Assembly: GCA_022376465.1 (NCBI GenBank)
Contig: JACDTU010000009.1
Span: forward strand, 1,405,015-1,469,014
Source: Cubamyces lactineus
Lineage: Eukaryota; Basidiomycota; Agaricomycetes; Polyporales; Polyporaceae
Direction of reading: 5' to 3'
Length of the DNA: 64,000 nt
The position numbers and the translations under genes are program-made. Positions 3,325 through 35,472 of the stretch are shown here, piece by piece; the stretch's first letter is position 1, and every line of letters starts with the position of its first letter. The notes under the pieces were generated by a model. The model did no database searches and was not told the DNA's origin. It saw only the letters and a list, made by a program, of their open reading frames with translations.

Positions 3325-5156
3325 TCATACAATGGCGAGATCCGCGTCGCCCTCCTGTTTTGCAGAGTCCGGACTATGGGGGTCCTCATATTCGTCTACG
3401 TACCCAATCGTGAGCTCCGAGTCGTCGTCGTCATCCAGTCCCGCGTCGATCGCTCCGCCCACGGACCCAATCATGGCCGACGCGAAGTGCAGCGTCCCGC
3501 TGCCGTACAGGTCGCCCCCAGAGCCACCGAGCTCCGAGTCGGTCGTCTCGAGCCCGGTCGACTTGATGTTGGCGCGCTGAAGCGCGAGGAGGAACCGGCA
3601 GATGATGATGACGGTGAGCCTGTCGATGGGGAGAGAGAAGCGACAGTTTGCCAGAGACAGGGTTGCAAGAGGTAGGTTGGCGGCATAGAGAAAGAAGGTA
3701 GAGTAGGGCTTACGGTTCTGTGAAGATAGGAATGAGGCTGATGGCCTGGCCGGTGATCAGGTCCTGAGAAGATTCGCGTCAGTGCGCTGCGGAAGTCGGA
3801 CGCGCTCCCTCAGTCACAGTTACCTCGGCGAGTAGGGTCAATGTTAGATGGAGTGTGTTCAATATGACAAGGGCCCTGTCGAACCATTCCGGCGTCAGCA
3901 CCTGCTGGCAGTATCGCAGATGTTGGAAGCAATTAAACGTACATGAAGTACACCGTCCCTGAAGGTTACAAGTTATATCCGTGAGTGGGAAGTGGGATGG
4001 CTCATATCGTGATGTTCTACTGACCGTGTAGTACCATCGCCTTCATGAGAGACGACCTGCATCCAGGCAAGCCCCAGCTTAGTCCACCTTTGGCGGCATG
4101 CCACCATGTCACCGCGAGGACGATGAGTTCTGACACGATGTCAGACACTCAAGAGATGGTTACACCTAGTAGTACCGTAGAGTGCTCGTCAATGTGCTGC
4201 CTCGTGCGCGCTGTGTGGAAGCAACATACCACTACGCAGCCCGGGTTCGTCAGCATGCCGACGGAACCTGAGTCGGAATGCACAAGATGTACTCACATCA
4301 ATGCCTCGTGTGCGGTCTCGTTCGACTCAGCGATGCAACCAATGACAGGTATGTTGGTACCGAATACGCCAATCGCAATGTACACCCACTTCGATGACGT
4401 TCGTCAGCGAGAGTGTAGTGAAGCTAAGGACCGGAACTCGGGATGATGCACACCAGATTTATGGCTACAGGCCCGCAGGCAAGAATGAACGTAACGATGG
4501 CCAATGTCCGGTTCATGTTACTCAACGCGAGCGTGCGCAAGGCGGAGAAAACTATATGCAGTCGTGTCACTTTGTCGCGGGATGGCGAGAAAAGGTTTAC
4601 CTGCAATGGGGAGAAGAATGAAGATCTCCATGATGCCCTCCGCCTTGTTGAGTTTAGAGCAGCTACCGTACAAGGGAGACGGTCAACCTAGCGCTAGGCA
4701 GCGGAAACGTGGTGGTTACAGACCTCTATTCGAGGTTCCATGTCAGTTACCCGCTGTGATCTCCGATGTAGTAGGATGAAACGTACCTGATCCGATAGAG
4801 TTAGCATGTAGGTGGCAGCCTCGATCCCGCACCAAGTAACTAACGACGCGTAGCGGATCATGAGGAACAAGACAGCTGCTCCTGTTTTCTTTTGCATCCA
4901 TACGTAGCGGACCTCTTGACCGAAAGTGATGGCGTATTCGTAGACCAGTAGGGCTATACACCGGCAAAGAATATGAGTATTAGCCCCGACGAGACAAAGC
5001 GAGAGTCGCACCTATGGGACCGACTGTAACCCAGTTGGCCGTGATGCTGCGTATATATATCGGTCAATGCTGATCCTTTTGATTGCTTATTAGACTCGCC
5101 ACATACCCTGCGGAGATAGTTGAGATCCATTCTGCAGGCGAGAGCCCCGCCGACAT
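3325..5156 (-). pseudogene. DUF6533-family membrane protein, copy A, with an in-frame stop
   Basis: This is a multi-exon gene read right to left. It starts with an ATG at 5156 (MSAGLSPAEW) and stops at 3325. The third exon carries the DUF6533 signature (LLVYEYAITFGQEVRYVWMQ) with the first membrane span. Later exons encode further spans, and the last (from about 3640 down) has an ICRFLLALQ helix followed by a Ser/Asp-rich tail. Two 2-nt exons are needed for frame: AG at 4724-4725 and TG at 4230-4231. A 16-nt exon lies at 3943-3958. In the exon after the second microexon, the Arg codon of the conserved SRSC motif is replaced by TGA (4149-4151), with no length change relative to paralogs. Every other exon is open. 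It is therefore a recent pseudogene or a truncated or read-through product. DUF6533 proteins are a basidiomycete family of unknown function, probably in membranes with about seven spans. Confidence 0.75.
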
Positions 5157-6025
5157 GGCCGCGGTAGGTAGGTGGCGGACGGGGGCGGATGAAGGGCGAG
5201 AAGGGGGTTCGCAGGGCCAGAGGAAGCCATGGGAATGCTGGGTTATAATCGAGTTAGCATTGAATTCAAGCTCCCCGACCGATGCCACCGGGGGAAGTGG
5301 CGCAACAGCGTATGAGCACGTCTTTGCACCAGCGAGCTGCCTTAGGTATCGGCGATCGCAGATTGTGTCCGCCACAGTGCGGGCGCTGCCCAGCTAATGC
5401 TGCCGTCGGATCCTGAGCGAGTCATGCAATGCGCATCCGAGTCGCTTGGGCATCCCCGATTCATATCGCAGGATGGACGTCCTCGGATGCACTTGCACTG
5501 TCGATGTCCTTCCACGATGAGGTAAGATGTCAACCGAAGGCGCTACACAGACGAAGCCTATACCTCACATCCGTCATCCTCAGTTCGAGGCGCGCTCCCG
5601 GACCCAGTTCCCCCCTGACGACCCATACATGGGTACATTTGAGCGGCAAGCAGGGAGCTTAGACACGACGGCCGGATTGCTCGGTGCCTAAGTATCCAGT
5701 GTCTACTCATCACTGATTGCGTGAGTATGTATGTGGTGGCTTCGGAGGGCCAGACGCTCATAGAGGACGCTTCCGTAAATCTTCGCGGCCTCGTGTCGGG
5801 ACGCTCTTCCATTCTCGCGACGCTCGCGTGCCGCACCAGCGTATACGGATGACTCGGTGCGCGATGGACACGGTTCCGAGTGCTGCATAACGTGTGTCTC
5901 TTCAAGACTCATGTGAGAAGTCGAATGCGTTCGGCACTGGCATACCTATGGTCTCCAGAGAAAGGCGAGGGGGTCGTACGACGAGACACTAACAGATTAG
6001 ACGATACAGTGAACATGAATCGCCC
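5157..6025. other. Intergenic region between copies A and B
   Basis: This region lies between the start of copy A and the stop of copy B. I see no conserved coding exon. The short ORFs on both strands have no recognisable domain. It should contain the promoter of copy A and the terminator of copy B. Confidence 0.5.
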
Positions 6026-7813
6026 TCAAGCGTGCATTTGTCGCGATTCTTGGCCAGTGTCTTCTTCGGATTGACCTATGAGCGTCAATGTGCCGCCGAA
6101 CGCATCGTCGTTCCTATCGTTCACGGAGCCCTCGTCGTGTTCGATGTCGACGACTCCCCCCATGGAGCCCATTATCGCGAGCTCGGCGAAGCGCAGGCTC
6201 CCACCGTACTCCCCGCCACGGCCGAGTTGCGAGTCCGCCGTTTCTTGGCCGGTTATCTTGACGTTAGCGGATTGCAGCGCGAGGAGAAAGCGGCAAATGA
6301 TGATGACGGTGAGTCTATCATGCGCGAGGGGATTTCAGATCAGCCTAACGAAGAATCACGCCGTCCAACAGAGAACACTGACGGATCAGTAAACAGAGGC
6401 ACTAGACTGACAGCCTGCTGCGCAGTGATGTCCTGAAGTTATATCAATGAGAGCGCTGAGATTGGACGCATCTATTACGTGGACTTACTTGAGACAGTAA
6501 GGTGAGTGCGAGGTGTAGGCCGTTGAGGATCAGTAGTGCGCTGATATTCAACGTCAGTTGCATTGATCGTCACCCCGGTGAGCGATTAAGTCGTTATCTC
6601 ACAGGAAGTACGTCGTTCCTAGAAGCCGCCGCCAGTCAGCCACGTCGCCTTTGTGAGGTGTTAGATACTCACCACGGAGAACCATCGTTCTCACCAGGGA
6701 GGATTTGCAACCGGGAATTCCTCGAGCGCGCCAAGTCATCCCACCGCGCGTGGCGTACCACCAAGTTATCGCAAGTACGAGGATGTCGGATGCTATAGCG
6801 CAAGAACGCGACACGGAAACACCTGAAATGTCACCCAAGTCGTGAGCGTTGCTGCGTCACGCACATACACGTGGACATCTGACCGCTGTGAAGGATAGTC
6901 AATGAATATGTCGCTCGAGCGAGACAAATGAGTAATAGCTCACATTCGTGCCTCGCGTGCAGTTTCGTTGGACGCTGTGGTACATCCAACAATAGGCCTC
7001 TCGAGCCCGTATATACCGGCACCGATGTAAATCCACTACCGTCCATGGGGATCAGAAAGGTGATCGTCTCTCGCGGTGGATGTCGACCGTACCAAATTGA
7101 TAGCGAATGGGCCAGATGCGAGGATGAATACGAGGGCAGCTAGCTGCCAATTCATGCCGCTCAGTGCGAGGGCACGCAGTGCAGCGAAGGCTATATACGT
7201 GTCGAACATGAACCTCTATCATGCAGGGGAGAGATAGCAGGACCCACCGCCGATAGGAAGGTAGAGGATGATTTCCATCAGCGCTTGTGTCTTGTCTAGT
7301 AGTGTGCAGCTGCATGCCATGGACAATGTCAAGAGGATCTCGTGATCGGAGTGTCAAGATATCTGAACCTCTGAAGCCAAAGGATCAGGATTCGACATCT
7401 AAATATGATGGCGGAAGCAGGGGGAGGACTCGCTTACTTCTATAGGTAGGCTCTGTACGTAGGTTATGGCTTCGAGTCCGCACCAGGTCATCAAGCCCAT
7501 GTAGCGGATGATGAGGAATAGTATGGATGCCCCGGTCTTCTTCCTCATCCATATGTAGCGAATTTCGTCATCTAAAGTGATGACATAGTCATACGCCAAC
7601 AAAGCTGTCCCTCAATTAGCACGGGAGTAGTACGAGCGTCTGCGCTCACGCGCACTCACTGATAGGTCCCGCAGCGACTATATTGACTGTGAGCCTGTCC
7701 AGGGAGCCAAGGAAAAGAGAGGTCAATCAACCTAAGTGGAAACACCTCGCAAGTATAGAGGATACTCACCCTGCAGATATGATTGGAACGAGCTCGGACT
7801 CTGGGAGTTCCAT
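6026..7813 (-). CDS. DUF6533-family membrane protein, copy B (intact)
   Basis: The complete 13-exon model on the minus strand is 7770-7813, 7660-7694, 7438-7604, 7369-7370, 7248-7309, 7093-7190, 6944-7035, 6884-6885, 6673-6822, 6603-6618, 6489-6540, 6383-6432 and 6026-6314. It totals 1059 nt (352 aa) and every junction is in phase. Exon 3 encodes the DUF6533 core (LLAYDYVITLDDEIRYIWMR) and span 1. Exons 5 to 7 encode further spans, including NWQLAALVFILASGPFAINL and the SRSCAIASD motif. Exon 11 encodes LTVIIICRFLLALQ and a hydrophilic tail. Two exons are only 2 nt long (AG and CG) and one is 16 nt. Without either 2-nt exon, the frame of the following conserved exon is lost. The molecular function is unknown. 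A membrane receptor- or transporter-like topology of about seven spans is inferred from hydrophobicity only. Confidence 0.85.
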
Positions 7814-8886
7814 CGCCGTGCTGCTCTGTCGTCCAGAGTCGAGTACAAGAGAAATCAGCAAGACGTGAGGCAGAGTTTGCTCTTCTATACGGACGGCCGT
7901 GTGAAGGCCCATTCGTTAGTTTGTACAAGCAGTCGCCACAGGGCACGAGGCCGGGGGTGGCGCAGTGACGGGATGTCACCTACTTGAGCAGAAGGGCGAA
8001 CCATTTTGGCACGGGCGAGGCGTGACGCGCAGGCTCTGGCTCTAGACATACGACGGCTTTGCGATATTAGGGAGTGGAATTAGCTATTACTTGCATTCGT
8101 GCCAATGGTCCGGCCAGTGACTCACGAGCGTTGAACGTCGAGCTTGACTGGCATTACAGTGACACCTGCGCGGTCATTGCGGTTCCGTCGATGTCAAGGA
8201 TCCGTCTGCGTCTTCCGATTCCCGTCGGAAGACCTGAGTGTTCATGGCTTATAGAAGATCAAGACGGAGAGCTTTGTGGGTCAGCGTGGCATAAAAGACA
8301 CATGATGACGAACGAACGACGGCAACACAGAGCGGCGACGAGTAGGGTTCTTGTTGATGATTCAACGAGGGCACATCGGGGATATCGCAGGAGAAGGATA
8401 TTAGGAGACACACAAGAGATTGATACCAAGGCTTGCAGACATGCAAGAAGGAAAGCATCGTAACAGCGACGCAGATGAGGGTCCCTGCAGAGATCGCGAT
8501 TCGCTTTCTGAGGTGCAGTAGGTGCGTACTGCATAGTTTCGCCCTATTCAACTGAACACAGATAGTGTCGTGCGATAGTACGCAGAGCTAAGGTCGAGCA
8601 ATGATTGCAGAAGAGAACAAACATGTTTGTAGACGTCTGACCATTGTGCGGGACTACCCCCGGCGTCTGTTTTCAGGCGCCCATCGTCGCCAGCGGCTCG
8701 AACGAGGCCGCAAAGTGTCAGCCTGAAGCATCAACGTCAACTCGTGGGCCTATGTGCCCATGATGGGATCTGCCACCGTTTAGTCATCCTCGTTCGCAGA
8801 GGCGTTCGTAGACGAGTAGGTCGTCGCTCCTTGCGTCTATGCGCGCGGACTCGGAGCGCACATCGTCCCAGTAACATGATTAACTG
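7814..8886. other. Intergenic region between copies B and C
   Basis: No gene is supported. A minus-strand open stretch near 8249-8551 has one good hydrophobic segment (IAISAGTLICVAVTML) but no family signature, so it may be a relic exon of an unrecognised membrane protein. The rest shows no conserved coding pattern. Confidence 0.4.
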
Positions 8887-10597
8887 TCACCGCGAAGCGA
8901 TCGTCCGCATCTCTTCCGAGTCATCCCCGCGCAGTGTGCTCCCTTCTGACGAGTAGCCTCCGATAGAACCGCCCATCGGTCCGACGACGACTGTAGCGAA
9001 GCGCAACGTGCCTACCTCGAGGCCTGTGTCGGTACCGTGCTGCCAGTTATCGTTCAGCGTTAGGTTGCTGGGGTCGGAAGAGGTGGTTTGCATGTGCGCC
9101 GACTGGAGCGCGAGGAGGAAGCGGCAGATGAGCATCGCAGAAAGCCTGAGAGATAAAGGATGAGCTTCGGGATCGGGGTACGCGATAGAGGGACGACAGG
9201 TAGATGTCGTATTGTAGACAAACTTACGGGTCGGTGAAGAGGGTCACTAGACTGATGGGCTGGACTGGGGCGAACTAAGGCAACGGCTATGTGAGTGAAA
9301 TCATTCCACGGGCTCTAGTTAGAAGGGAAACTGACATCGGAGAGCAGGGTCAAGATGAGATGGAGAGCGTTCAGAATCAGATGAGCCCTATCTCAGCGTG
9401 AGCACATCTGACGGCGGGGATCGCGCCATGTACCATAGTGTTACGCACAGAAAGTATATCATCCCTGCGGGAATGCAGCGTTTATCAGTACTTTCATGAG
9501 AAGAATTCGAGTGTACGACGAACCATGGAGCACCATCACCCTAGCAAGAGGTTGCCTGAATCCGCCAACTCGGATGGTGGTACGAAACGTCCCGCCTCTT
9601 GCTGTGTACCACCAAGTAGCCGCTATAACGAGCACGTCCGCTAGTATAGCGCACGAGCGTGAGACGCATACACCTATGGCAGCGATTGAGATCGTATGAG
9701 TAACTTCGCGCAGCACCTCTCAGAAGCATACCCACCCCTGCAAGAAAACCGTAGTCAGCAGATGCATGACGAATTGAGCGTTTTTTATCTCACAATCGAG
9801 CCTCAAAATCCGTCTGGTTGGTGCTGCCAATACATCCGACGAGTGGAACATTGACTCCAAAAGTACCGACGCCGATTAGTGTCCACTGCGTGAACAGGCG
9901 CTAGTGAGTCAAGGATTGATGTTCGAACGTTGGTTGAATCGCAGACGGAGAGAAACGTACGAGATTGATCACGAAGGGCCCGCATGCGAGGATAAAGATG
10001 GGTACAGCCAATTTCCAGTTCATGCCACTGAGAGCGAGGACACGCAAGGCGGGGAACGCTGGTCGATGTAACGATATCAATCCCTGGACGGCGGCTAGAG
10101 CGACTGATGCATACCTGCCCAAGCGACGTACTGTATAATTTCGGCGCTGAATTGCGCTCGAGTAATCGCTGTGCAGCTACGTAGATGATGCCGCTGGGTC
10201 AGATACCCTCAGGGACAACCTGACCGCACGAACCACACCTCTATATGCAAGTCAACCCTGAGGTTTTGAATTGACGAGACGGATAGACATACGTGATCGG
10301 ATAGGTTGGACACATAAGCCATACTCGGAAGCAGCACGAGAGAGAATAAAGCATAGTAGCGAATCATGATGTATAGAATGGATGCGCTCGTCCTCTTACG
10401 CGCCCAGATGCATCGTACTTCTTGATCGAAGGTGATCAGGAAATCGTAGAGGGGCAAGATTATCGACGCCAGGCTGACTCTGTTGTCCAGAAGCCTGTAC
10501 AACGAGTTAGATCCACAACATCAGGACTCCGGATGAAGAACACGCACGTCGAGGAGATCGTTGCAACCAAAGCGGGGTCCAGGGGTGAGGCCGACAT
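8887..10597 (-). CDS. DUF6533-family membrane protein, copy C
   Basis: The start is an ATG at 10597 (MSASPLDPAL) and the stop is at 8887. Unlike copies A, B, D and F, exons 2 and 3 are fused: LLDNRVSLASI runs straight into LPLYDFLITFDQEVRCIWAR, so one intron is absent. Frame requires a 2-nt exon AG at 10239-10240, giving SCTAITRAQ at the next exon; no phase-compatible alternative acceptor exists in this copy. A second 2-nt exon, GG at 9736-9737, leads into GVCVSRSC. A 16-nt exon lies at 9449-9464. The last exon encodes LSAMLICRFLLALQ and a tail with GTLRFATVVVGPMGG. I found no internal stop along the spliced path, so it appears functional. The function of the family is unknown. Confidence 0.8.
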
Positions 10598-12959
10598 GGC
10601 GTGATGAGCAGCGTGCGACACAGAACTACAAAGAACGCAGAACGGTGACTCTTCGGGTACTCGGTCTTCATATACTACCCAGAGGTTGACGTATCCGACG
10701 TGACCGGAAGGTCGGAGTGAGCCACACGACAAGGGCTTCGGGGAAGAACTCAATCTACGCCTGGCACGCCACCTATCGTGGGTGAACCTCGTATTCCACG
10801 TTTTCCAAGCAGATGACAGATAAGGGTCAGATGTGGATGCTATCGCGCTCATGTCAGAAAGGCACTACGATACTGTATGTAGTATGTTGACCACGCAGAT
10901 CTGAATGATTTGCCTCGAAATGGTGGCATGCATTGTCTTGTGGACTTTCAAGGTTTGCGAGCGGCAGCTTGATTCCACAGGTGTGGTATGTCGAAGGGCT
11001 TGGCGAATGACTCAACTGGAAAAGGCTCCGGAGGATTGTCCAGTAGTAGGGCGTCCATCCGTGACGCTCGAGACAGTCCCCATGGCAGAAAGCAACAAGA
11101 TGAAGCACATAAGAAAGCGACTTGGGTGTCAAAGTAGACGATGACCGGTAAGGACAGTCGGGCGTCTGATAATTGTTGCCTTCGGGAGTCCAATATCTGC
11201 GTCCACGAGCGAACTCGACGTGTGTAGAATCGTACGCCGGTCTTAGGGCGCGGTCCGAATAGGATCCAGTAAGCCCGGGGGTGATTTGTACACGTCAACG
11301 CCACCATGACTCAAGTACTCACCCGCAGTACAGTAACGGCAGGCAAGCAATGGATGCGTTGCGAGCAGGCCGCCGCTGATCAACGCTACGAAGTAGATCA
11401 ATAGTGACTGTTGAGGTTCTCACAGCTACTCAGCAAGAAGAACCGCTCGGGATCGGAGAATTGCATGCCATCACAGCTCTCAAGGTCAGCCCGAAGGCTT
11501 TGGCAGACACCTTATACATGCTTCTCTGCATGGGGCGTTCGGCGACAACACGCGTCCAAACGGCCTGGGTCCAGTACTCCACAGCTTGGCGCCCTCATAT
11601 CCGAGAACCTCCAAACTTTGTCGCCGCGCTGAACTGCATGCTCGTCATCAGGAGGCACAACGAAGAATAACGCAGTGGAAGCGCCGCACTTCCTCTACAA
11701 TAGCAGCGCCGATCGTCTGCAAATCGCTCGTTGGTCGCTCGTGTCCGATGTGCATATACTCAGCGAAACGCGGAAGATCTTACTCGTGGCGGCTCAGGCA
11801 ACTAACGCCTCGCACGCGTTGATACAAATGCACTGATTGCAACGCACAGATAGCACTGACGATGTTAGTAGAAAGCTACGAGGGAAGTGCGTACCGCGCA
11901 ACCCGATCGGGAATTAACTCGATGGGCCTCTGCTCAAGGGAAGCTGGGTTCGACTGAACATGCCGATCGTCCTTGTAACGTATCGAACGTGGTCTGGATG
12001 AAGGGTTATTGCAGTCGAGCTACTGGCTGGGAATCGGGACCAGGAAGGTGTCAAAGCATTCCAAGCGAACTCGTACACTCAGTCGACTCAACTACTCTCA
12101 GCTGCGACGTCCCCTCATATTTCCATCCTTCCCTCTCCCGAGCGGCTGCCAGGCACTTCTCCAGCATCGTCGCTTCGCCGGTCTCCCTGCGGCCATGCCA
12201 TCCTAGCTCGTCGCGCGGGCAATGGCAGTTTCGGAACGGCCAAATGTTCCGGATGCAGTTCGATGGGAGTGCTGGTGACTTCGAGTGGTGACATCAGAAC
12301 CTTTGGCACTTCTACACCCAGATCCACGTACTGACACCACTTCCATGCGTCGCGTGTTGAAAGTGGTTTGATGCAACGACTTATAGGGCGTGCAAGGCAA
12401 GAGATGTAAGCCGTTGTGCGCCCGATGATGCTAGCCACATCGTACTCACGGGGCGAGCGTGCGTCGTCCTCTTCCATCTCTCTACTTGTGACTCTGAGAC
12501 TGCGATTGCTGACCGTCTCTATTTGTAAAATCAGGATATGACGTCGAGCATCGTATAGGCTTGCAACTCTCACACGCTCCCCTTGACATGCCTTCGAGAC
12601 GATCATATTTGCGGCGAGTCCAACGCGGCATCAAACACAAAGACGGCAGCCCGGATTACAGCCTTCGTGGTACGTGCTGCCAGTGAGCGTAGTTTTCACC
12701 GGTCTCTTCCCTCGCTACTATAAGACCCACTTATCTTCTGAACGAGTGTTGCGCTCATTGGCCTTGCTTCGTGACCATTGGATAAGTGCTACTCAGACGA
12801 TGTGAGGGATGTTGATAGAGGAGTACCGTGAGCCCATTCGCCCTAGCATCGAAATCCTGCGACTACGTCTTCAGAAGGATCTAACTGGTGAGTTACGAGA
12901 GTTAGTAGAAGTAGCCTAGCCGAGTGTTGCGTCCGATTGGGTTAACGAGAGGCGGTCCA
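10598..12959. other. No supported gene; relic coding fragments
   Basis: I cannot build a gene here. Minus-strand pieces include a hydrophobic stretch around 11330-11400 (IYFVALISGGLLATHPLL) followed by a GTGAGT donor. Next to it, around 11410-11560, is a segment similar to one at about 21970-22060; both read AFG, then RAVMAC. A plus-strand piece at 12640-12672 resembles the end of the small secreted protein at 23.5 kb. These suggest decayed members of families present elsewhere in the window. Confidence 0.35.
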
Positions 12960-13017
12960 GAGGAGGAGGAGGAGATACAATTGAGCAGACGGGAGCCTAC
13001 TGCCCTCAATGGTCACA
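12960..13017 (-). repeat. LINE 3' end shared with the element at 21.6 kb
   Basis: On the minus strand this reads TGTGACCATTGAGGGCAGT and onward to a (TCC)n tail. It matches 21558-21621 on the plus strand with one substitution before the tail. The two copies are therefore inverted and mark the outer ends of the LINE pair. Confidence 0.85.
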
Positions 13018-13597
13018 GAGCTTGGGTGGGCTTTTCTTTTCTTTGAATCCTCGTTTATTGCCCTGCAGGGCCGGGCCCTATGGTAGGCGATGTAGCGCGT
13101 GTAGGTACCAGTGGACGAGCAATGTGGTCCTCTGTCGTATGTAGGGGGGGGGGTGGCGAGGGAGCGCCGCATGCAATAGTATGTGAATATAGGCTATAGG
13201 TTGAGAGGGAGGACAGAAGTGAGAAAGCAAGGAGACGTAGAGGCAAGGGGAAAAAGAGAAGAGAAAAGGGGGGGGGTCGCGCCAGCCACACCGCGCCGGC
13301 CACAGTGGCAGGGCACCGGGTTCTAAACCTCTCCGCACTTCTGGATAGCGACTGCGCTTCCGGGCTTCATGCCTCTTGCTGCGGGAGGGGTACGCGCGCG
13401 TGGCAGACACCGACGCGGCGTCAGAACTCCCCCGGCCCCAACGCGGAGGTTATGTGGGCGGCGTGCCCGGTAACTACAGAAACCGAAGCAAATGGAAAAA
13501 ACAAGTGCAGAGGCGTATGTAGGGGCGCGCTGTGAGGGAGGGCACCTGGTGGGGGGTGGGTCAGCAAGCCGCACAACGAAAGGGAGGAGGAGTGTGC

Positions 13598-24405: not shown

Positions 24406-26156
24406 TCACACCGCGCCCATCGAAAGATCGCTCGTCCATCCCGTGTGCTGCGATCCCCGAACGTCGAGTCCGATGTCGTCCCCATGTTCTCCTCCATTCG
24501 GTCCCAGGTCCACCGAGTGCGTTGCTGAGGACGCGAAATTCAACGTCCCCAAGTTCACTTCCGAGAGCGTACCGAGCCACGAGCTATTCGAGCCCAGATC
24601 GGTCGTCTTAGAGCTCGCGGCATGGAGCGCGAGAAGGAACCGACAAATGATGACGGCCGTGAGCCTGCGGACTCGGTCAGCGTCCAAAACGAGAGCTAAG
24701 CGGTCGGGCCAACCCCGCCGGGATCAGTAAAGGAGGGGCTCACGGGTCAGTGAAGATTGTCACTTCGCTGACTGGCTCTGTCAGACCGACGATCTGTGGA
24801 TCCGGGGCATCAGCAATGCAGGCGCCGCTTCAGAATAACATCGGGTCGCTCACCGAGAGAAGCGTTAATGTCAGGTGTAGCGTGTTCAGCAAGACGAGAG
24901 CCCTGTAAGTACCTGTGAGTGGACCATACGAGGGTGAAAGTCTGCGCGCGGATATTCACATGAAGTAGGTGGTCCCTGTCGGTTAACGGGCAAGGATCAT
25001 TAGCTATGCGGCGCGAATGGGGCGCAACGCGCGTCAACTTACCGTTGAGCACCATGACACGCGTTAGAGACATCTTAGGTCGGTCGCGTCGCATCGCGTC
25101 GAGCGAGCCGTTCCGTACCGCGTTCCACCAAGTAATCGCGATGATAAGTAGGTCGGATGCGATAGCGCATGAACGCGAAAGCCCGACGCCTGGAGAAACA
25201 TCCACTATCAGTCGTCATGAAGACGGGTGGGGCAAAAGGGGGAAGTAGCCTACCACTACGCATCGCCATTAGTCGCGTGTTCCGACTGCAGATGGAGAGT
25301 TGGGCTTACATTTTCGCGTCGAAGACTGTTCCTTGGCTGCCACCGATACAACCTGCGACGGGTATGGTGTACCCCACGACGCCGAGCGTGCTGATATTCC
25401 ACTGACGATGAGTGTTAGGTGAGTACCAGAATAGCCGATGTTCAGCGGGAACCGCACCATGTTGACGGCAAAAGGCCCGCTAGCGAGTATAAAAACGATA
25501 GAAGCAAGAGTCCAATTCATGTTGCTGACTGCAAGCGCGCGCATTCCAGCAAATACTGAAGGGAATAGCGATGAGTCAAATCAGGAATTCGGCGAAAGAT
25601 AGGACCGACTTACCCGCCCAGCCAAAGTATTGGGCATACTGGATAGCGGTCTGCGCTTTTACAAACGATGAGCACCTGTGAATATCATCTGAGTATTCCT
25701 ACGCGATATTTCAGGCGATCGTCGTGACGCTTACACCTGCAGCGAAACGAAGGCGGTCAGTCTGTGGGAGAGCGCGGCGGCAAGGGACAGCATTCTCACT
25801 GGACTGGACATAGGCATATAGCTGATCGCTTGAATGAAGACTAGGGTCACAAGGGCGTAGTAGCGAATCACGAAGAACAGCAGAGAAGCCCCTGTCTTCC
25901 TGCGCGACCAGATGAAGTGAACTTCCTGCTCGAACGTGATGACATATTCGTATGCGACAAGGGCTTGCCGATGTGTATTAGATCCGGTGCGTAAGATGCG
26001 TACGCGAAGTCGGTGAATGCTCACCAACAGCACCCATAGCGAGCCTGTTGCCCAACAATCTGTGTTGTCCAGTCAACGATCAACTCGTAACGCTTGTAGA
26101 ATAGAAGAAACTCACGCGGACGAAATCAGGGCTGGTGGGACGGGTTGTTCAGACAT
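24406..26156 (-). CDS. DUF6533-family membrane protein, copy D
   Basis: The start is an ATG at 26156 (MSEQPVPPALISS) and the stop is at 24406. Exon 3 encodes ALVAYEYVITFEQEVHFIWS and span 1. Frame requires a 2-nt exon at 25735-25736; here it is GT rather than AG, flanked CTGCAG|GT|GTAAGC, giving VCSSFVKAQ in the next exon. The second 2-nt exon is TG at 25254-25255, leading into GVGLSRSC. The 16-nt exon is at 24960-24975. The last exon encodes LTAVIICRFLLALH and a tail in which the GTLNFA motif is followed by an insertion before PNGG. The spliced frame appears open throughout. This copy lies beyond the LINE pair from copies A-C but has the same orientation. Confidence 0.8.
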
Positions 26157-28419
26157 GACTTGCGGTGCCAGCTGGCAGAGGAACGCGTCGAAGCGAGTAC
26201 CACCGAGTCGCGTTTACCTTTGAGCATCCATGCGTGGCGAGGATATGAATCAAAGGAGAGCGCCCGACGTGGTCGTAAGCGTCGCACTAGCCAGAGCGGA
26301 GGCCAGAAGGCGTGTTCGGGTGATATGATAGACGCCGAACGAACAGTGCCAGATTGATAGTTCGTCTTTGTTTGCGACGATTCGTGCAACGAGCTAGCCC
26401 TTTTCCGGTATGATGGGCGCGAGTGAGGGCGATAAGGAGAACCGGATCCCGACCCCGGACCCCTCGGTGTCCTCTATATTCTTTGCTACTCGCTACGTAC
26501 AAAGTTAGTTTCCGATGGTGCTGACGTTGCACTCTGACCATGGCCATGCATGGAGTTCGACTGCGCAGGACTGCGGAAGCGAACGGCGAGATGTCAATGG
26601 GATAGCGGGGCGGTCCCGCTGAAGATTGCTTCACGCAGTCTACTTTGGTTGACCGAAGATTGGGGCGGATACGGCAGATGGAAACGGTGACCCCGGCAGG
26701 ACTAAAAACGTCATCAGGCCTACGATTGAGTTATGGGCGCAAGAGATGGTGTTCCTGGGCTTACTGAAACCAGCGCCTCAGACTCGACCATGCCGAAGCT
26801 ACAGGTCAGCTGTGCGAACCTCGGATGAATCACGCTGGACGACCACGTATAGGTCGTTTACTACAGGAAAAAATGTTACACATACCTGGATACGGTGCCC
26901 TAGAACCCGTGAAATTGTGGATGGATGCACGCACGAGGCATTGGCCGGGGGCTCGGATATTAAGACTCTGGTCGACCCACAACGCATCCGCAACGCCAAG
27001 GTACCGTAGTAGCGGCGCAGCCGCGAAGATATTCAGGACGAAAGCACAGCCCTTGAGCACAGCAATGGCGCCATGCAGTGTCAGTGGGATAGGCGTTGTA
27101 GCTACAAAGAATCTTCGTTGCGCGCAGAACGGTCAGCACGCTCGTACTTCGATGGATTCTGCTACGCAGGCGTGTATTCACAACACTCAAGCTCTGACAG
27201 GCCAAACCACCAGCGAGCCGCGCTCAGCCGCCGCACTATCTGCAGACCAATAGGATGAGCATCGCTATGTCCAAGTAGTCGAGGACAGGCGATCGGCATG
27301 TTGCGAGTCCCGCAATCCAGTATTACATGCAACAGTGAGCTGCCACATCTATCACAACGCCCATACGTTCCTATTAAATGAACCAAGTTCGCTCAGATGT
27401 GGCAAGATTCGACGAAAGCGTAATAGCAGTGCAATGCACCCACCCTCGCTGTATCGCCAGGCGCCATTCTTGAAGTTGGCGAACTCACCGTACTGATCTT
27501 CAGAACCAATAAATCCCTCACGACTTCATAGGACTTGAGTCGTTTGACATTGATGTAGATCTTGCTAACGGGTTTCATGACCCGTGCGACTCGGGCCTGC
27601 CTCAGTTGCTAGATGCGCGGCTGATAGTCAAGGAAATTAATATGATGAATACCACTATAGCTCGCGCTGGTCATAAGCAAAACTCTCCAGAGGGTGATGG
27701 TCGTGGTCGAGGAACAAGAGCAGGAGCCAGCGCTCAATGAAAGAGGCGCCGATGTGACCTGATGGATCGGACCGATAGTCCGATCAGGACCTGGCCTCCT
27801 CCGCGACCTTCTACGACTGAGGACTGCGTTTTCAATTTTGGCATCCTTGCATATCCGCCATTCCTCCAACTTGACTAGGCCATGCTATTTTGGAGCTGCT
27901 GTACGATATTTTCTAGTGAGCAACCTAGGCTCCGAGCTGATGCTCGAGCTTCAAGTCTAGCTGTAGCCTGGTCGCTTTACTCGAGAATTCAGTTCCTTGT
28001 CCTTGCTACACCCGGGTGTGTCGCTACGCATTATCTAGGTCCTCCGGGGAGTGGAGCTGTAAGAAGCTACATAAGCTCCAAGTATGCGGTTGTGAGTAAG
28101 CCCAACTCCGTCGCGCCGTCTATATCAAAGAACATGGTGCTCTCTCTGCCCGGGTATACGTACTTACTAGGCAGAGCCGACTCCTCGTTGATTCGTATGA
28201 TTGACGTACTACTCCCAAATGCCTCCGTCCATACAGCGCGAAGTACTCGTAACAATCTCCATTACTAGTGCTTGGCTTGCGCAGTCAGCTCCGCTCTTGT
28301 AGCAACACACTGTTTGGACGTGTCTAATTTCTCTCGTATCACTACGCTTACCACATCAAGTACATCAACGAATCCACCTTGAAATATATCCATAGGTACG
28401 CGACCGCCGGCCAACCACC
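26157..28419. other. No supported gene
   Basis: Only short ORFs are present. A minus-strand hydrophobic run near 26980-27120 (IAVLKGCAFVLNIFAAAPLL) looks like a membrane-segment exon but cannot be joined to others. The region is AT-richer than the gene-dense half of the window, and I see no RNA gene in it. Confidence 0.4.
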
Positions 28420-30178
28420 ATGTCAAACCCATCACCAAACTCCGATGAGGTCGCTGCCACTGCCTCTATGTTCGTCTTCCTTGAAATCAGAACGAGAATG
28501 TGTACTCACACCGAACTTGCTTTGGCTCTCCGGAACAGGCTTTTGGACAACAGAGTGAGCCTGGCGTCCATCGGTACCGTAGAAACGCTCGCGACCCATC
28601 CGTCCAGACCAGCTCATATCTGTAGCTTTTCCAGCATTGCTAGCCAAAGATTTCGTTGTCACATTTGGCTCCGAAGTCCGCTACGTGTGGTCCAGCACAA
28701 CATCGGGAGCCACAAATCCTGTTCATCTGCATCTGCTATCACGCCTGGCTATTCCTAGTATTTCTCCCGATCGCTTCTTATATCCCAGACATGTCCGATC
28801 AGGTGCGTAATTCTTCAATCCTCTCCGCACCTCAGGCTTCCGAGTTTGTTTACCCCCGATGCTCTGAACAGAGGTATGTCCGTATAGCCACCGCTGAGAG
28901 CCTTCTGGCCTATCTGATATCTGGCCATAGCTGCTCGACATTAACCAAAGCCCAGTACTACGCTGCAGTCGTGCAATACATCCTGTGGGCTGGTGAGGAT
29001 TCGATCATCACCCGTCGCGCTTTCCGCATACTGACTTTCACACCCTCGAGTGTTCTCTGCGATACGCGCCCTCGCGCTCGGTCGTCTCAACTGGATGTTA
29101 GCGTCCCTCGTATTCGTCCTCGCGTGCGCGCCTTTCGCTGTCAATCTCGTACGTTACCCTCGGGCAGTTTACAATAATTGAGGTCTGACTGAGGCGCGTC
29201 AGTGGACCGTCGTCGGATCTGGCACCACAGTATCCATGGTCCCGACGATTGGGTGCATAGGCGGCACAAATCAAACCGCCTACGATGCGAGGATGTGCGT
29301 ATAGATTTTCGTTTACTCGGAGTACACGCACTGATGCACCCTTGCAGTGGTACGGTATCCGTGCTCGTAGACAAATGTCGGAATCATGAGTGATCGTACA
29401 GCCTTCTTACAGGTGTATCCATAGCTAGGTCATGCCTGATTGCGTCAGACATTCTGGTCATAGTCGCAACATGGCGCCATGCGAGGGCCTCCGTCGCGCT
29501 CAGAGGCATGCGCGAGACTCGACATTCGCTCATGGAAGTCATGTTGGTGCATAGTCAGTTGCAGTAATTCCATCACCGCGTATGGATTCGCTCACATAGT
29601 GATCGTTGATGCTAGGAACGATGTATTTCGTGTGAGAATAACCTGTTCTTGAGTGGAGCACCGCAGCCGGTGCTTATATGCTCGCAATAGGCTCTTCTGA
29701 TACTCAACGTTCTCCATCTCGCCTTGACGTGATCATCTCAGGTAACTTACCTCCCTATACTAGCGCCTGTCAGCCGCCCTGACAAGAATGTCTGGTATAG
29801 TCTGGTCCTGCGCAACCCATCAGCCTTGTTACGCTCTTCACCGACCCGTACGTGTCCTCCTCGAAGTCTCTGAACCAATGCTTCCCCACATGCAGCATCG
29901 CGCTCACATCACGCCTGTATTCTCAGTCGTATAGTCTCTCCGCAATCCTCATTTGCCGAATCCTCCTCGCGCTGCGACGCGCTCACCTCAAGGTGATCAA
30001 CCAGGATTCCAGCACCAGTCACTGTGGAGTGTATTCGGCCCATGGTCGGGGTGCTGACGGACGTGGGGCGAACGCGGGCAGCGGTACGTTGCAGTTTGCG
30101 ACGAGGACGTTGACGAGCGAGATGGACGGATCCGTCGACACGGGCGACATGGAGGGCGAGAGTTTTGACAGACTATGA
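28420..30178 (+). pseudogene. DUF6533-family membrane protein, copy E (inverted and broken)
   Basis: This is the only copy on the plus strand, from ATG 28420 (MSNPSPNSDE) to stop 30178. Exon order and introns match the other copies, including 2-nt exons AG at 28872-28873 and TG at 29348-29349. It carries two lesions. In the DUF6533 exon, after GSEVRYVWSSTTSGAT, one extra A at about 28711-28717 shifts frame. The expected continuation (LFICICYHAWLFLVFLPIA) is in the next frame. In the exon beginning at 29687, the leucine codon after LHLALT is TGA (29730-29732). The 16-nt exon (29616-29631) also needs a shifted donor to keep frame. The last exon (LSAILICRILLALR and tail) is still open. It is a recent pseudogene, since exon and splice signals remain recognisable. 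Confidence 0.8.
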
Positions 30179-32987
30179 GCGGGCGCTAGCCTGAGATGAT
30201 GGCGACGACCGAGGCACCTTGCTATAAGGTGCAAGATGAGCCTGCAGTGGATACGACGATTTAAGTCTCCTGCAGCCCAGAGAACCGATACTGCGCAGAT
30301 ATAGAACCGCACCATCCTTCAATTCATCCAGGGTCCTACACGTTCAGCAACCGCGAAGACTCTGAGGACATCGTCTATGCGTCGCTTGCAGCCGACTGCG
30401 CCGTCAGCCTGCAAACCACCGCCCAAGTTGATCGCGAGTCTCCCGACGAGCGCACGCTCGTTCCTTTTCATGGCACAGCTAGAAATGCGGGAATTGGGAA
30501 TTGGTCGAGACACATGAGAACGTAGTGCATATGTGATTATGACGGGAAGATGCGGTTTGGATCTAAGCTATGTCTTGGCGAAAGTCAATTGTAGGTCATG
30601 CTTGTAGGCTGCAAGATAATTTGAATCGAACAAGGCGAGGTAACGGCGCCGAGCCCGAGGCTATTTCAACGGTGTGGCCGCTCTGGCGAGTTTGAGTCTT
30701 CACTTGTTCGTGTGATATAGTACGACGTCGACCTTGAGCGCAGCCCGTCGTGTTCGGACGTTGACGTGCAAGATGAAAGGCGACCGGACATTCATGCGGA
30801 AAATCTTGCCGGCGAGTCGCCCATTGCCATCAGCTAAAGGGTTTGTACAGGCGTAACGCTGCTCAGAGCAGTTCATTGAGGGAATGTATGGTCTTGATGC
30901 GTTGTGCCCGGTCGAAAAACCGTTCAGTGTCCAGCTCTTACGCCATGGCAAGTTACGCACCCAGACGGCAGGAACAAGTGAAATGCGAGGTTAGCTATCA
31001 GCTTCTGAGGTTCGCCATCCGCCGCCTGCGTTTACTATTCGCCGTCTACAAGAGTAAAGTTCGGAGTCTAGTTGAGCTACGGTCAGATGAGACCACAACA
31101 TTAAAATGCATCCTGTACAGTACGCACCCGGTCACACGCATACGGATGACCTGCGTTTCCGTCCGAGCAGACCGAGAGCCTATGCAAGAGCCAGCATAGA
31201 GTTACGTTCTCGACAACGTCTAACGCGCTTGAGGTCGGAGGCTGACGTCGTCTCGAAGTCTATCGGCGTAGACGGTCAGTGTAGCGCTGGCATGTCGCGA
31301 CTCAGAGTCGGGAATCCATGATACCAAACTATATATCCCCGACCACATCATAGACGTCGCCGCCCCTGGGGCCGTCATTGGTTTCAGGGAAGCACACGGG
31401 ATCGTCGAGGAGGCGTTGACGTGCATCATCCGTTGACGCTACGGTGCATCTGCGGGCTGAGAGCGGCGATCCTAACGCCTGGTGGCGCTCGAGGGCAGCG
31501 CCTCTGCACTGCACGGTGTATCATCGCGCTTCGACATTGGGCGCGCATTCGCGCTTTCCGATGCGGAGAGGAGGTGATATGCGTCTCCGCACGGTGCCTA
31601 TCCGGACAGGAAGTGGATGCGAGCGCGAGGAAGGCAGCACGGCTGGTGAGTCTCCAAGCAGCTTTACTGTAGACAGGTGTACGACCATATTCGCAAGGCG
31701 CTCGAGGTCGAACAGGAGGTTTTGCGATGATACGGAATTAGCTCGTAAGGGCGAGGAGGGACTGCCAACGTGCGAACCGTGCGTGTATGCCAGGAACGTC
31801 GTCCAGTGGTGCTGTACTTCAACTTAGCACGTTTCTTGCAGTCAGCCGGAAATGTTCCTATGTTCTAAGGTTGTGTTCAGAATGCTTCTACTCAGCGGGA
31901 TGCCATGAAAATGAACGCCCCTGATTGTGGACGCCAGCCACCAGAGAGATGCCTCCACAGCATCGGATGCGAGTATTCGTATACGAGGCCTGATCGCATC
32001 CGTCAATCGCGACTGTGCCTTACGTAGCTTAGTGCGCGGCGGTCGGCAGTCACTCTGGCTGCATCACGAATAATATCGCGAATACCTCTCCGCTGCTTGA
32101 GGCCGTGAAGACGTGGCGAGGCCGGCGCCGCAGCATCCGGTGCACGCTGCAAACAGTGCGGTTTCGCCGCGCGCATGTCGTACGGAAACACCTGGGTCTG
32201 GGGTCAGTCGTTGGAAATGGAGAGACGACGACGGCAGTCTATGTGGTTCACTACACCTGTAAACCGTTTTGTACAGGGCTTGTCAAGGATATTCCTTGTA
32301 GTGCGCTCACATCACAGGCAACGTGTGGTATTGAAACGCGTGTCATTCATGTCGATAGCATAATCGCTCTCAAGGGACGGCGGGGGATGAAGAACAATGC
32401 GGCGTACCTCAGCGATTCCAACTGGGAACACGGGTTACACAGCGTGCGAGTGGTGGCTGAGAGGATCTGTCCAGTAATTTGCATTGGACATCATGCGGTG
32501 TCCACAACCTCTCGGAGCTAGCTTGGAGCTTACAGCCCAGCGGGATGTACTGGCGGGTGGTGAGCCTAGACTGGTAGGTAGAGGATGCACGCCCAATTCG
32601 TATTGTTGGTCAGGCACTTCGCGTGGCGTGCCAAGAGTTTGAATTCATTCGGAAGCAGTGGAGAACAGCCGTGGATAGCAATGTGCGGCAATTGTGGTTA
32701 GTTGGGAGCAGCCGCTCTGATATTCCTGCCGCCTCGGAACTCACTGGTGTATCCGACTCAGTCTTTGAGCGACAATGTGCTGTTCAGCGACGATTTGTTG
32801 ACGCGCACAAACGCGTTAAATAGGGCTCGAAGTCCCGCTGACTCCTCAGACCCCGGTCTACAATCCCAAGCAGTCAGCTAAAGACAACCCTAGCCTCTCA
32901 AGACCACTTACTCTCTATCGGTGAGACAGCCGTTTCCAAGATCGACTAGAACGAAGCTCATGATGAGGTGTTATAGTAGCAGCCACC
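30179..32987. other. No supported gene
   Basis: Many short ORFs occur on both strands, none with a recognisable domain or convincing splice chain. A minus-strand frame ending at 31329 has an acidic C-terminal look (GGDVYDVVGDI), and one ending at 30319 has a Gly-rich run. Either could be an exon of an unknown gene, but the support is too weak to annotate. Confidence 0.35.
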
Positions 32988-33347
32988 ATGCAGTTCAACC
33001 TCGGAGCATTCGCCACCCTCGCCGCTGCCCTCACGGCCATTGCCCCCTCCGCCCTCGCGGCCTCCTGCTACAGCTCCTCCGGCTGCAAGCAGTGCGAGAG
33101 CGAGTCGAGCGTGTACGCCGCTCGCCAGCAGTTCTGCGGCTCCGACGACTGGTCCCATAGCTCGTCGCTCAGCTGGGGTTGGGCACACGTCACGCTTGAC
33201 GGCGAGTTCTACTCGCAGCAGGAGTGCTGGGACGGCTTCCAGAACATCATAGAGCAGTGCTACGGCCATAAGAACGGCGGCATCTACAACTACGACTACA
33301 ACGGCGACTCCGCCCGCCTCGACGTCAACTTCTGCAACTGCGAGTGA
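32988..33347 (+). CDS. Small cysteine-rich secreted protein (single exon)
   Basis: The product is 119 aa without introns. Residues 1-24 form a signal peptide (MQFNLGAFATLAAALTAIAP then SALA). The mature part has eight cysteines: CYSSSGCKQC at its start, then single Cys residues, and FCNCE at the end. It is rich in Tyr, Trp, Gly and Asn. The even cysteine number and small size fit a disulfide-stabilised extracellular protein. I recognise the general style from Agaricomycete secretomes but cannot assign a family or role. Codon use is strongly C-ending (GCC, TCC, CTC), unlike the flanking DNA, which supports a real, well-expressed gene. Confidence 0.8.
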   Translation: MQFNLGAFATLAAALTAIAPSALAASCYSSSGCKQCESESSVYAARQQFCGSDDWSHSSSLSWGWAHVTLDGEFYSQQECWDGFQNIIEQCYGHKNGGIYNYDYNGDSARLDVNFCNCE

Positions 33348-33834
33348 GCGGCGGGGGGCACTCACCATCCTCGACAACGACATGGAGGATTCAGCGTTAT
33401 AGTAATGGGCGTTCGGTACAGGCGGGCTTCTTGGGTTCTTGGATAGCGTTTGTAACATTGGAAGTTCTAGGAGTCACGAAAATCATATTGTAAGCGACAT
33501 AGCGACGGGCTATAGAGTCTTGGATAAGGGCTACTTCATCAGGACTACGTCTGCGAAGTAAGCGTGAGCGAGTTGAGCCATCAGTAGGGGAGGCCTCTCC
33601 TGGAAAGGAGACGCAGTATCTAAGAAACAGCCCCGACATGCCTAGCAGTGAAGCGAGCTCCAGAGCAGTCGTTAGGCACCAATGCATTTGGGTTCCCAGC
33701 CCATCACGCAGGTTGTCCCAGCGATGACGCTGCTGTCGAAGGGCGCACCGTGATTTTACCTACGCTCAGCTTCATAGCTTCGTAATTACCACTAGCAGTA
33801 GGGCGTCTCGCCGCACACATGACAGTTCGCTGCT
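33348..33834. other. Intergenic region between secreted protein and copy F
   Basis: No gene or repeat was recognised. Both flanking genes end here, so it should hold two terminators. Confidence 0.5.
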
Positions 33835-35472
33835 TCAATACTGGGCATTGGACATGACATCCTCGGTCCCGAGGGCGACAGTGCCTCCCATGGTACCTAC
33901 GATCGCAGACGCGAACTGCAGGGGTCCACCATTGTCCTCCTCTCGGTCGAATTGTGAACCGGAGGAATCCTCGTCGACAACCCTGGCGTTGGTCGAGTGC
34001 AGTGCGAGGAGGAACCGGCAAATGAGGATTGCTGTGAGACTACGCGACTCCTGAGTAAAGACTAGCACCAAGGACCCGCACAAATGCTTACGGATCGGTG
34101 AAGATCGTCACTTGGCTAACGGCTTCGACCACCTCGACGATCTGCCCTCCAATGTCAGCTATCAAGGAAACATTCTACAGTAACCGCGGCTCACTGAGAC
34201 TAGAGTCAGAATTAGATGGAGCGAGTTGAGTGTCAGCAAGGCTCTGTATATACGAGAGTGCCTGAGCATCAAGACGTCTGGACCCACAAGCAAACTCACA
34301 GGAAGTAAATCGTTCCTATGCATCTCTCGGTTAATGGAGAAGGGCATGGAAAATGGCAATGAGGAACTAACCGTTCATGACCAACACTCGAGTGAACGAG
34401 GGTATCGAACTACGAACGTGGCGAAGAGTCCACGTTCCGCTCTTCGTCGCGTACCGCAGCGTGATAGCGATGACAAGCAGGTCTGCAGCGATAGCGCTGC
34501 CGCGCGAAACGCCAACAGCTGAGGGTACGTATCTATGTCATCCGAGAACGACAGGGCTCCATGGCTAGAATACGCTTACTGCTGTAGAGAAACGTGAGCC
34601 AATCATCAGCCGGTGAGGAGACACGTACTCACATACGCGCCTGAGCAGCGGTAAGCGCTGTGCTGCCGATGCATCCTACTACCGGGTAGTTCTCGCCGAC
34701 CACACCGATTACGGCTAGAGTCCACTATGTATGTCGTCAGTGAGGCTCACGCGGAGGGACGGTTTTGACATACCACGTTGACCGCAAAAGGGCCACACGC
34801 TATGACGAAGGCAGCAGTCGCAAGTGGCCAGTTCATGCCGCTCAATGCGAGAGCGCGCAAGCCGGAGAAGACTATACAGGCCGACTGAGGATGTGGAGGT
34901 AACTGTGCATGACAGGACGCCTACCAGCCCAAGGAACATACTGCGCAATCTGTGCGCTTGCGGTAATTTTGACGAACACTGCACAACTGGAGGATCGACC
35001 TATACATTAGACATGCGTAGCACAGCATCATACATGTGCAGATTCGTACCTCTACATGTCACATCAGCATCGGGAATGGTGGTCCAGATTAATAGACGTA
35101 CATGATCGGACATGGAAATGTACGACATGGATTCTAGGAACACCAAGGCGAGCAGTGCTAGATACCGAACGGCGAAGAACAGACACGAGGCACCCGTCTT
35201 CTTGCGCATCCAGACGTACTGAACCTCTTGTCCGAAAGTGATAACATAGTCGTATGCGAGAAAAGCTGAGTCACGGAGGAAGATGAGCTAAGACATTCGC
35301 GGGCGATACGGTTGAGTATCTACTCACTTACTGCCGCAATACTAAGCCAATTGTCGAGGAGACTGATTCAGACGTGTCAGTTATCCTCGTCGCGCAGCTA
35401 CAGAGTACCGACGTACGTAGCGGACACAAACTGGAGGATTTCCGGGTTCAAGGTTGCTGTGGAAGACGACAT
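33835..35472 (-). CDS. DUF6533-family membrane protein, copy F
   Basis: The start is an ATG at 35472 (MSSSTATLNPEI) and the stop is at 33835. Exon 3 gives FLAYDYVITFGQEVQYVWMR and span 1. A 2-nt exon AG at 35050-35051 is required to reach the next exon (SCAVFVKITASAQIAQYVPW); no phase-compatible single intron exists. A second 2-nt exon, CA at 34580-34581, joins to TVGVSRGSAIAADLLVIAI. The 16-nt exon is at 34300-34315. The last exon encodes LTAILICRFLLALH and a tail with GPLQFASAIVGTMGG. All exons are open. Conserved SRSC is SRGS here. The function is unknown. Confidence 0.8.

Follow-up and report, generated by a model that had tools for sequence, protein, structure and literature searches.

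Two predicted two-nucleotide coding exons in the DUF6533 membrane-protein genes of the fungus Cubamyces lactineus

The stretch of Cubamyces lactineus DNA analysed here (64,000 nt; hereafter, the window) harbours six paralogous genes, copies A to F, coding for membrane proteins of the DUF6533 type. Copy B (6026..7813, minus strand) was modelled by hand as 13 exons, two of them 2 nt long, separated by introns of 54-75 nt, and the resulting protein of 352 residues is intact. It belongs to the DUF6533 family (PF20151) with an E-value of 1.9e-16 and a score of 60.3 bits, above the curated Pfam cut-off of 24.1, and is represented in the public annotation by two fragments. With regard to the other copies, a frame change is present within the DUF6533 exon of copy E, and a later exon of copy A contains an in-frame TGA. 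Judging from the DNA, we consider it very likely (probability of about 0.95) that the DUF6533 genes of this species each contain two obligate 2-nt coding exons, here named M1 and M2.

M1 would follow the DUF6533 exon and contribute codon positions 1 and 2 of the residue preceding a conserved cysteine. A previous sequence-only reading had placed an AG|NN|GT arrangement there in the six copies, with AG as the dinucleotide in five of them and GT in D, and this was recovered in every case, namely, at 4724..4725 in copy A (AG, minus strand, introns 4786-4726 and 4723-4663), 7369..7370 in B (AG, minus strand, introns 7437-7371 and 7368-7310), 10239..10240 in C (AG, minus strand, introns 10292-10241 and 10238-10177), 25735..25736 in D (GT, minus strand, introns 25799-25737 and 25734-25676), 28872..28873 in E (AG, plus strand, introns 28803-28871 and 28874-28930), and 35050..35051 in F (AG, minus strand, introns 35101-35052 and 35049-34987). 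The phases it described are likewise found in the window copies, with the DUF6533 exon closing in phase 0 and its successor opening with one base followed by TGC or TGT. For the flanking introns, which it had put at about 50-69 nt, the measured lengths are 50-69 nt on the upstream side of M1 and 57-63 nt on the downstream side.

M2, which had escaped that reading, lies about 470-500 nt downstream of M1 in all six copies, between an exon with a P..GC-like motif and an exon with an SR.C.IA.D motif, where it would complete two split codons. It is located at 4230..4231 in copy A (TG, minus strand, introns 4296-4232 and 4229-4166), 6884..6885 in B (CG, minus strand, introns 6943-6886 and 6883-6823), 9736..9737 in C (GG, minus strand, introns 9793-9738 and 9735-9674), 25254..25255 in D (TG, minus strand, introns 25309-25256 and 25253-25190), 29348..29349 in E (TG, plus strand, introns 29295-29347 and 29350-29412), and 34580..34581 in F (CA, minus strand, introns 34632-34582 and 34579-34519). 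At copy C M2, the public protein model P0010 reads EARLGVCVSR, matching the prediction. As expected of a microexon shorter than 3 nt, the two nucleotides are directly bordered by an acceptor AG and a donor GT, and they are needed to keep the joined exons in frame, the copy B model closing with both.

The survey of the 36.3-Mb genome retrieved 66 DUF6533 matches, 53 of which have recognisable M1 flanks under a rule requiring a phase-0 donor and an acceptor followed by a Cys codon, which builds in some of the support; for L072 (copy E) both splice sites were placed manually, and among the 13 unplaced loci, L034 has M1 by eye, plus an extra intron. The loose AG-NN-GT pattern is present at M1 in 48 of the 53 loci, against a mean of 10.3 and a maximum of 19 in 1000 shuffles, a count that is not explained by chance; about 10 loci would carry the pattern by chance alone, so a few of the 48 could be misplaced. 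The strict pattern YAG-NN-GTRNG occurs in 32/53 (1000 shuffles: mean 0.7, maximum 5), and of the other spacings from 0 to 12, only spacing 5 (four loci) is found in more than one locus. In three divergent members the exon measures 5 nt instead of 2, one codon more, which keeps the frame. The bounding AG and GT are fixed and the dinucleotide varies, AG being the commonest (31/51 loci). Absence of the motif at the same phases, which would speak against the exon, is not the rule among these paralogs of one genome, since, the three 5-nt variants aside, two of 53 loci lack a clear case: L026, where the motif is absent, and L068, with only a possible 5-nt exon and an unusual donor (neither has a row in the M1 table). 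The M1 flanking introns measure 49-83 nt and 49-76 nt genome-wide, and the entire intervening stretch 101-150 nt.

For M2, 44 loci had a downstream-exon match score of at least 7, and 43 remained after L054 was dropped; the acceptor of L064 was set by hand and L063 has no donor row, which leaves 42 loci in a table that required a phase-2 donor, so that phase support is partly built in. The loose pattern occurs in 42/43 loci (shuffles: mean 10.8, maximum 20) and the strict one in 35/43 (mean 0.8, maximum 4), with 13 kinds of dinucleotides among the 42 loci, flanking introns of 50-73 nt and 47-103 nt, and an intervening stretch of 101-178 nt. The distance from the protein anchor to the acceptor of the post-M2 exon is identical in 42 of 44 loci, a constancy that was not built in. 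Spliced proteins were obtained from 37 of the 43 loci (L013, L024, L050, L063, L068 and L072 were not joined), the remaining introns being joined so that the frame stays open; the Cys found in all 37 carries no evidential weight, because the placement rule demands it. Conservation at the same exon phases was assessed in the DNA of the paralogs, and in other species at the protein level.

A simpler view would be that each place holds one ordinary intron whose frame is restored by an alternative donor or acceptor, AG-NN-GT being incidental. On paper, 27 of 53 loci at M1 and 20 of 42 at M2 offer such an alternative. In the window (donor score of at least 2, YAG acceptor and no stop at M1), copies A, B and F have none at M1, C has one, and D and E two each, while B, E and F have alternatives at M2; the sequence-only reading, which held that C and F had none at M1, agrees with this for F and differs for C under these criteria. 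However, the alternatives are absent from 26/53 and 22/42 loci and scattered over different offsets elsewhere, the most frequent offset being shared by four loci at M1 and six at M2. Moreover, AG-NN-GT would be left unexplained in 48/53 and 42/43 loci, and the whole stretch between the flanking exons measures 101-150 nt at M1 and 101-178 nt at M2, compared with introns of 54-75 nt in copy B. Since about half of the loci offer no alternative and the others have them at scattered positions, single-intron models were rejected, and we regard them as very improbable.

Two consecutive short introns needing stepwise removal would also fit a stwintron or a zero-nucleotide recursive splice site, in which AG and GT are used and no base is left in the mRNA. 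Stwintrons are on record in fungi, and AG as dinucleotide makes AGAGGT, which also holds AG|GT. Nevertheless, with zero bases retained neither junction would be in frame, the two final bases of the exon differ from AG in 20/51 loci at M1 (three being 5-nt exons) and in 41/42 at M2, and the strict pattern with spacing 0 (YAG-0-GTRNG) occurs in 1/53 and 1/43 loci, the same as in shuffles. This possibility was rejected as well, since the frame needs two bases and spacing 0 is not enriched in the strict pattern, and it appears just as improbable as the single intron. Still less credible is the idea that AGAGGT represents a conserved intronic regulatory motif and not an exon: the predominance of AG at M1 would suit it, but the M2 dinucleotide is nearly arbitrary (AG in 1/42), the sole length variant is longer by one codon, and a regulatory motif gives no reason for the frames or for the donor trade-off described below. 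A conserved 2-nt exon, as the sequence-only reading had proposed for M1, fits best, given the frame, the 48 of 53 paralogs, the varying dinucleotide, the 5-nt variant and the splice signals on either side.

With regard to these signals, donors have a stronger intronic portion where the dinucleotide ends in a base other than G, at M1 and M2 alike, a difference reached in 5 and 16 of 20000 permutations at the two sites; such a trade-off is as expected for a working 5' splice site. The branch motif CTRAY is present in 31/51, 23/51, 25/42 and 17/42 introns (shuffle maxima 22, 19, 16 and 15), above all 300 shuffles in each of the four intron sets. On either side of the exon there are a separate donor and acceptor and an excess of the branch motif; CTRAY is missing in 90 of the 186 introns. 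The exon base at position -3 gave no signal of splicing order (2.56 vs 2.52 and 3.00 vs 3.04 matches). The positions, the frames, the conservation among paralogs, the varying dinucleotide and the donor trade-off are read from the sequence, whereas the actual splicing of M1 and M2, with its order and efficiency, is inferred. Each dinucleotide would be flanked by two ordinary short introns of the U2 type, mostly 50-75 nt long, and the most likely mechanism would be intron definition, with the two introns removed successively, since the sites flanking 2 nt can hardly be occupied simultaneously. The two bases would then provide positions -2 and -1, on the exon side, of the 5' splice site of the second intron, and skipping them would shift the frame.

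Public protein models bear on the same junctions. By eye, junction 1 is contiguous in 12 of 49 judgeable models (P0014, P0021, P0022, P0023, P0025, P0026, P0027, P0037, P0042, P0044, P0048 and P0052), P0035 and P0057 being ambiguous and outside the 12, and many others break there, a possibility that the sequence-only reading had raised for database models; some models of other species that continue across M1 uninterrupted count in favour of the exon. An automatic label gave 25 exact, 24 disrupted and 8 not evaluable models at junction 1 (n=57), but it misses insertions located further than one residue upstream, and P0014 was made evaluable by hand; the 12 contiguous models are among its 25 exact ones. 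At junction 2, the counts were 24 exact (some of them wrong further upstream, e.g., P0018 and P0019), 20 disrupted and 13 not evaluable. Both junctions are contiguous in nine of the 57, namely, P0021 (doubtful at the second), P0022, P0023, P0025, P0026, P0037, P0042, P0044 and P0052, all compared as proteins. The ungapped alignment of P0052 with the predicted L037 splice covers 144 residues, of which 132 are identical. With one spliced query of 159 residues, which gave 45 matches, no intron-loss copy was recognised in the genome of C. lactineus; ten matches cross the first junction, three of these containing stops, and all ten lie in M1-modelled loci, indicating that they run into intron sequence. 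No DNA relatives from other species were found in the viral-contig and genome-contig collections searched.

Exons of one or two nucleotides have so far been described as oddities of a few genes. The paired 2-nt exons, at about 90 places in paralogs that have diverged down to 19-30% identity, may be old, fixed and obligate in the gene plan of the family, a proposal to which we give an even chance; if it is true, their persistence through such divergence would mean that 2-nt exons are routine substrates of the fungal spliceosome, and the two-step removal may act as a control point, because omitting either dinucleotide destroys the frame. One genome offers about 90 natural variants of one arrangement, in which evolution has varied the exonic bases and the flanking splice sites, and the way in which the spliceosome defines an exon too small for binding, including removal order and the part played by the exon bases at the 5' splice site, becomes directly testable by sequencing. 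In addition, many public models of a fungal membrane-protein family, one member of which is described as needed for fruiting-body development, err at predictable places.

That member, SNB1 of a mushroom-forming fungus, is a DUF6533 protein with seven predicted transmembrane helices, and its family is required in fruiting-body patterning (PMC10949477); it shares the domain with the present genes, and exon sizes are not mentioned in the passage describing it. In line with the sequence-only reading, which knew of no such exon in DUF6533 genes, the literature passages mentioning DUF6533 concern other matters, and among the matches listed from the open-licence literature none describes a fungal exon of 2 nt. 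Ultra-short microexons as such are already known. The P450 genes of Phanerochaete, also a wood-decay basidiomycete, contain very small exons and frequent introns of 45-55 bp, but the shortest exon stated is 6 bp (PMC1184071). Stwintrons and recursive splicing resemble the DUF6533 case in the consecutive removal of introns, and the former occur in fungal genes, but in stwintrons, as described, the splice signal of one intron is interrupted by another, with no coding base in between. In plants, APC11 and VPS55 carry conserved, often unannotated single-nucleotide exons, for which the Arabidopsis authors propose intron definition and recursive splicing (PMC4674806, PMC8831610), these differing from the present exons by the kingdom, the length of 1 nt and the few genes concerned. 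A close likeness is found in the CYP621A genes of Fusarium, where a single-nucleotide exon, presented as the first of such kind in a fungal gene, was deduced from a conserved AG|G|GT and the frame, with almost all public models wrong at that point and SRA reads giving support in two species (PMC12940212). Both cases involve a fungal coding exon shorter than 3 nt, recognised through frame and AG/GT signals and misannotated. The CYP621A exon, however, measures 1 nt, occupies one position in orthologs of one P450 subfamily and is backed by reads, whereas the DUF6533 exons, known from DNA, would measure 2 nt and occupy two positions per gene, in about 90 instances among divergent paralogs of one genome.

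In the sequence-only reading, each of the six DUF6533 (PF20151) paralogs of the window, copies A to F, was credited with a conserved two-nucleotide exon (M1) following the exon that carries the DUF6533 signature. Our analysis of the genomic DNA supports this prediction and extends it by a second predicted exon of the same size (M2), located further downstream. At M1, the claimed AG|NN|GT, where NN stands for the two exon bases, is present in all six copies at the positions given in that reading, NN being GT in D and AG in the other five. The signature exon closes in phase 0 and the next one opens with a single base ahead of a cysteine codon, which leaves two bases to be supplied between them, and the flanking introns are as short as had been proposed (50-69 nt on one side, 57-63 nt on the other).

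A PF20151 profile search of the genome (36.3 million bases, 43 contigs) revealed at least 66 places; all 66 were retrieved, and 53 of them passed a fixed rule for recognisable M1 flanks, namely, a phase-0 donor and then an acceptor before N-TGC/TGT (in L072, the flanks were placed by hand). Between these flanks, AG-NN-GT occurs in 48 of the 53 loci, compared with a mean of 10.3 and a maximum of 19 in 1000 dinucleotide shuffles, and the stricter YAG-NN-GTRNG in 32, compared with a mean of 0.7 and at most 5. When the strict scan was run over spacings 0 to 12, 0 or 1 locus was found at each apart from 2 and 5, while the loose-scan excess at spacings 0 and 6 stems from AGAGGT and GTRNGT themselves. 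The frame-preserving spacing of 5 is found in four of the 53 loci (shuffles up to 4), three of them (L060, L061 and L074) without the two-nucleotide form and the fourth (L015) with it. In the subgroup formed by these three loci, and possibly L068, which has a possible 5-nt exon, M1 is replaced by a 5-nt exon, a one-codon change. An additional locus outside the 53, L034, shows AG|AG|GT by eye, together with an additional intron. In the 51 modelled loci, NN is AG in 31, and otherwise AC, GG, AT, GT, TC, GC or CG, apart from the three 5-nt exons; the codon formed at M1 is serine in 31 of the 51. NN itself is no motif.

The second dinucleotide emerged from copy B, in which a hand-built gene of 13 exons (7813-6026) closes its frame with a further dinucleotide, CG, at 6885-6884, and yields a predicted product of 352 residues matching DUF6533. 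Another small exon of this copy, of 16 nt, lies at 6603-6618. The M2 scan was limited to loci with a recognisable following exon (SR.C.IA.D.LV), of which 44 were scored and 43 kept. AG stands exactly 5 nt ahead of the protein anchor of this following exon in 42 of the 44 scored loci. The scanned stretch contains AG-NN-GT in 42 of 43 loci, compared with a mean of 10.8 and at most 20 in shuffles, and the strict form in 35, compared with a mean of 0.8 and a maximum of 4; no other strict spacing exceeds three loci (the count at spacings 6 and 10), which is inside the shuffle range. The one locus outside the 42, L011, has AG-NN-GT slightly further upstream. All six window copies carry M2: TG in A (4231-4230), CG in B, GG in C (9737-9736), TG in D (25255-25254) and E (29348-29349), and CA in F (34581-34580). 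Among the 42 loci, NN is AC or TG (7 each), CT (6), AT (5), CG (4), CA or TT (3 each), CC (2) or one of five others (1 each), and is thus almost free. In total, 48 M1 and 42 M2, that is, 90 predicted two-nucleotide exons, are tabulated in a single genome.

With regard to the flanking introns, those of the modelled loci measure 49-83 and 49-76 nt around M1, and 50-73 and 47-103 nt around M2. The acceptor preceding the small exon is YAG in 49/51 (M1) and 40/42 (M2) loci, and the donor following it fits GTRNG in 37/51 and 37/42, compared with 47/51 and 39/42 for neighbouring upstream donors. A branch-like CTRAY occurs in 31/51, 23/51, 25/42 and 17/42 introns of the four sets, each count above all 300 shuffles, and is absent from the searched stretch in 90 of the 186. 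Each half thus looks like a complete intron. Retention of the whole intervening stretch would leave an open frame in only 5/51 (M1) and 5/42 (M2) loci, and all three remainders modulo 3 are represented among the combined intervening lengths.

If NN forms the exonic end of the second intron's donor, a poor NN would need a stronger intronic part. Scored by how many of the positions +3 to +6 agree with R-A-G-T, donors that follow an NN ending in G average 2.25 (M1) and 2.54 (M2), compared with 3.20 and 3.24 after other NN, differences reached in 5 and 16 of 20000 permutations, which ignore paralog relatedness. With relatedness likewise ignored, the trend among the ordinary upstream donors in these genes is weaker at M1 (311/20000) and absent at M2 (5182/20000). 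This trade-off supports a functional 5' splice site right after the two bases, and carries no information on which intron leaves first; the -3 base likewise gave no signal of removal order at M1 or M2. As splice sites on either side of so short an exon are difficult to occupy simultaneously, the introns would probably be removed stepwise, by intron definition. The same view is favoured by the authors of an Arabidopsis study (PMC4674806).

Partial proteins could be spliced in silico through both dinucleotides in 37 of 43 loci. Their pairwise identity ranges from 19% to 75% (median 29%), with few alignment gaps near the junctions, and the arrangement therefore seems older than most of the divergence of the family. 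Because the rules in part impose the frame and the cysteine, it is the alignment as a whole, and not the frame, that provides support. One query of the same genome recognised no intron-loss copy. On the window's contig, 1324114-1440280 contains ten DUF6533 matches in about 116 kb, including four that lie upstream of the window, and this clustering suggests local duplication.

Cubamyces is a wood-decay polypore, and nearly all of the 57 public proteins obtained by sequence searches, compared as proteins only, come from polypore genera. At the first junction, 12 of 49 judged models are uninterrupted, with exactly one residue between the DUF6533 exon end and the cysteine (by eye), most others being truncated or carrying insertions; at the second, 24 of 44 are exact (automatic label). 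Nine models show no break at either junction (P0021, with some doubt as to the second one, P0022, P0023, P0025, P0026, P0037, P0042, P0044 and P0052) and, known as proteins alone, are consistent with two-nucleotide exons or with genes devoid of those introns. The alignment of P0052 (Cubamyces sp. BRFM 1775) to the protein predicted from L037 is free of gaps across 144 residues, of which 132 are identical. The public models divide copy B into two fragments: P0032, of 130 residues, and P0024, of 137 residues and named Cubamyces lactineus, which is 100% identical to the C-terminal part of this copy over 37% of the query. Copy C corresponds to P0010, which is without the DUF6533 exon end and has LGV at the second junction, in agreement with the prediction given the GG exon.

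Copy A contains an in-frame TGA (4149-4151, minus strand) in the exon after M2, at a position open in the related public proteins P0002 and P0003, and may therefore be a pseudogene in this strain. Copy E also looks damaged, by a frame change inside the DUF6533 exon (about 28714-28740, plus strand); it keeps M1, M2 and their splice sites. Both lesions sit elsewhere and the conclusion on the two-nucleotide exons is unaffected. Between copies E and F, an uninterrupted frame of 119 residues (32988-33347, plus strand) has several cysteines and, by eye, a signal-peptide-like start.

A literature search for two-nucleotide exons matched solely a human disease database, and the portions of the literature searched contained no example of a pair of them fixed across a whole gene family. 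Ultra-short exons as a kind are already known: one-nucleotide exons are described in Fusarium CYP621A (PMC12940212) and in plants (PMC4674806, PMC8831610), whereas the DUF6533 genes studied here are predicted to carry two exons of two nucleotides each.
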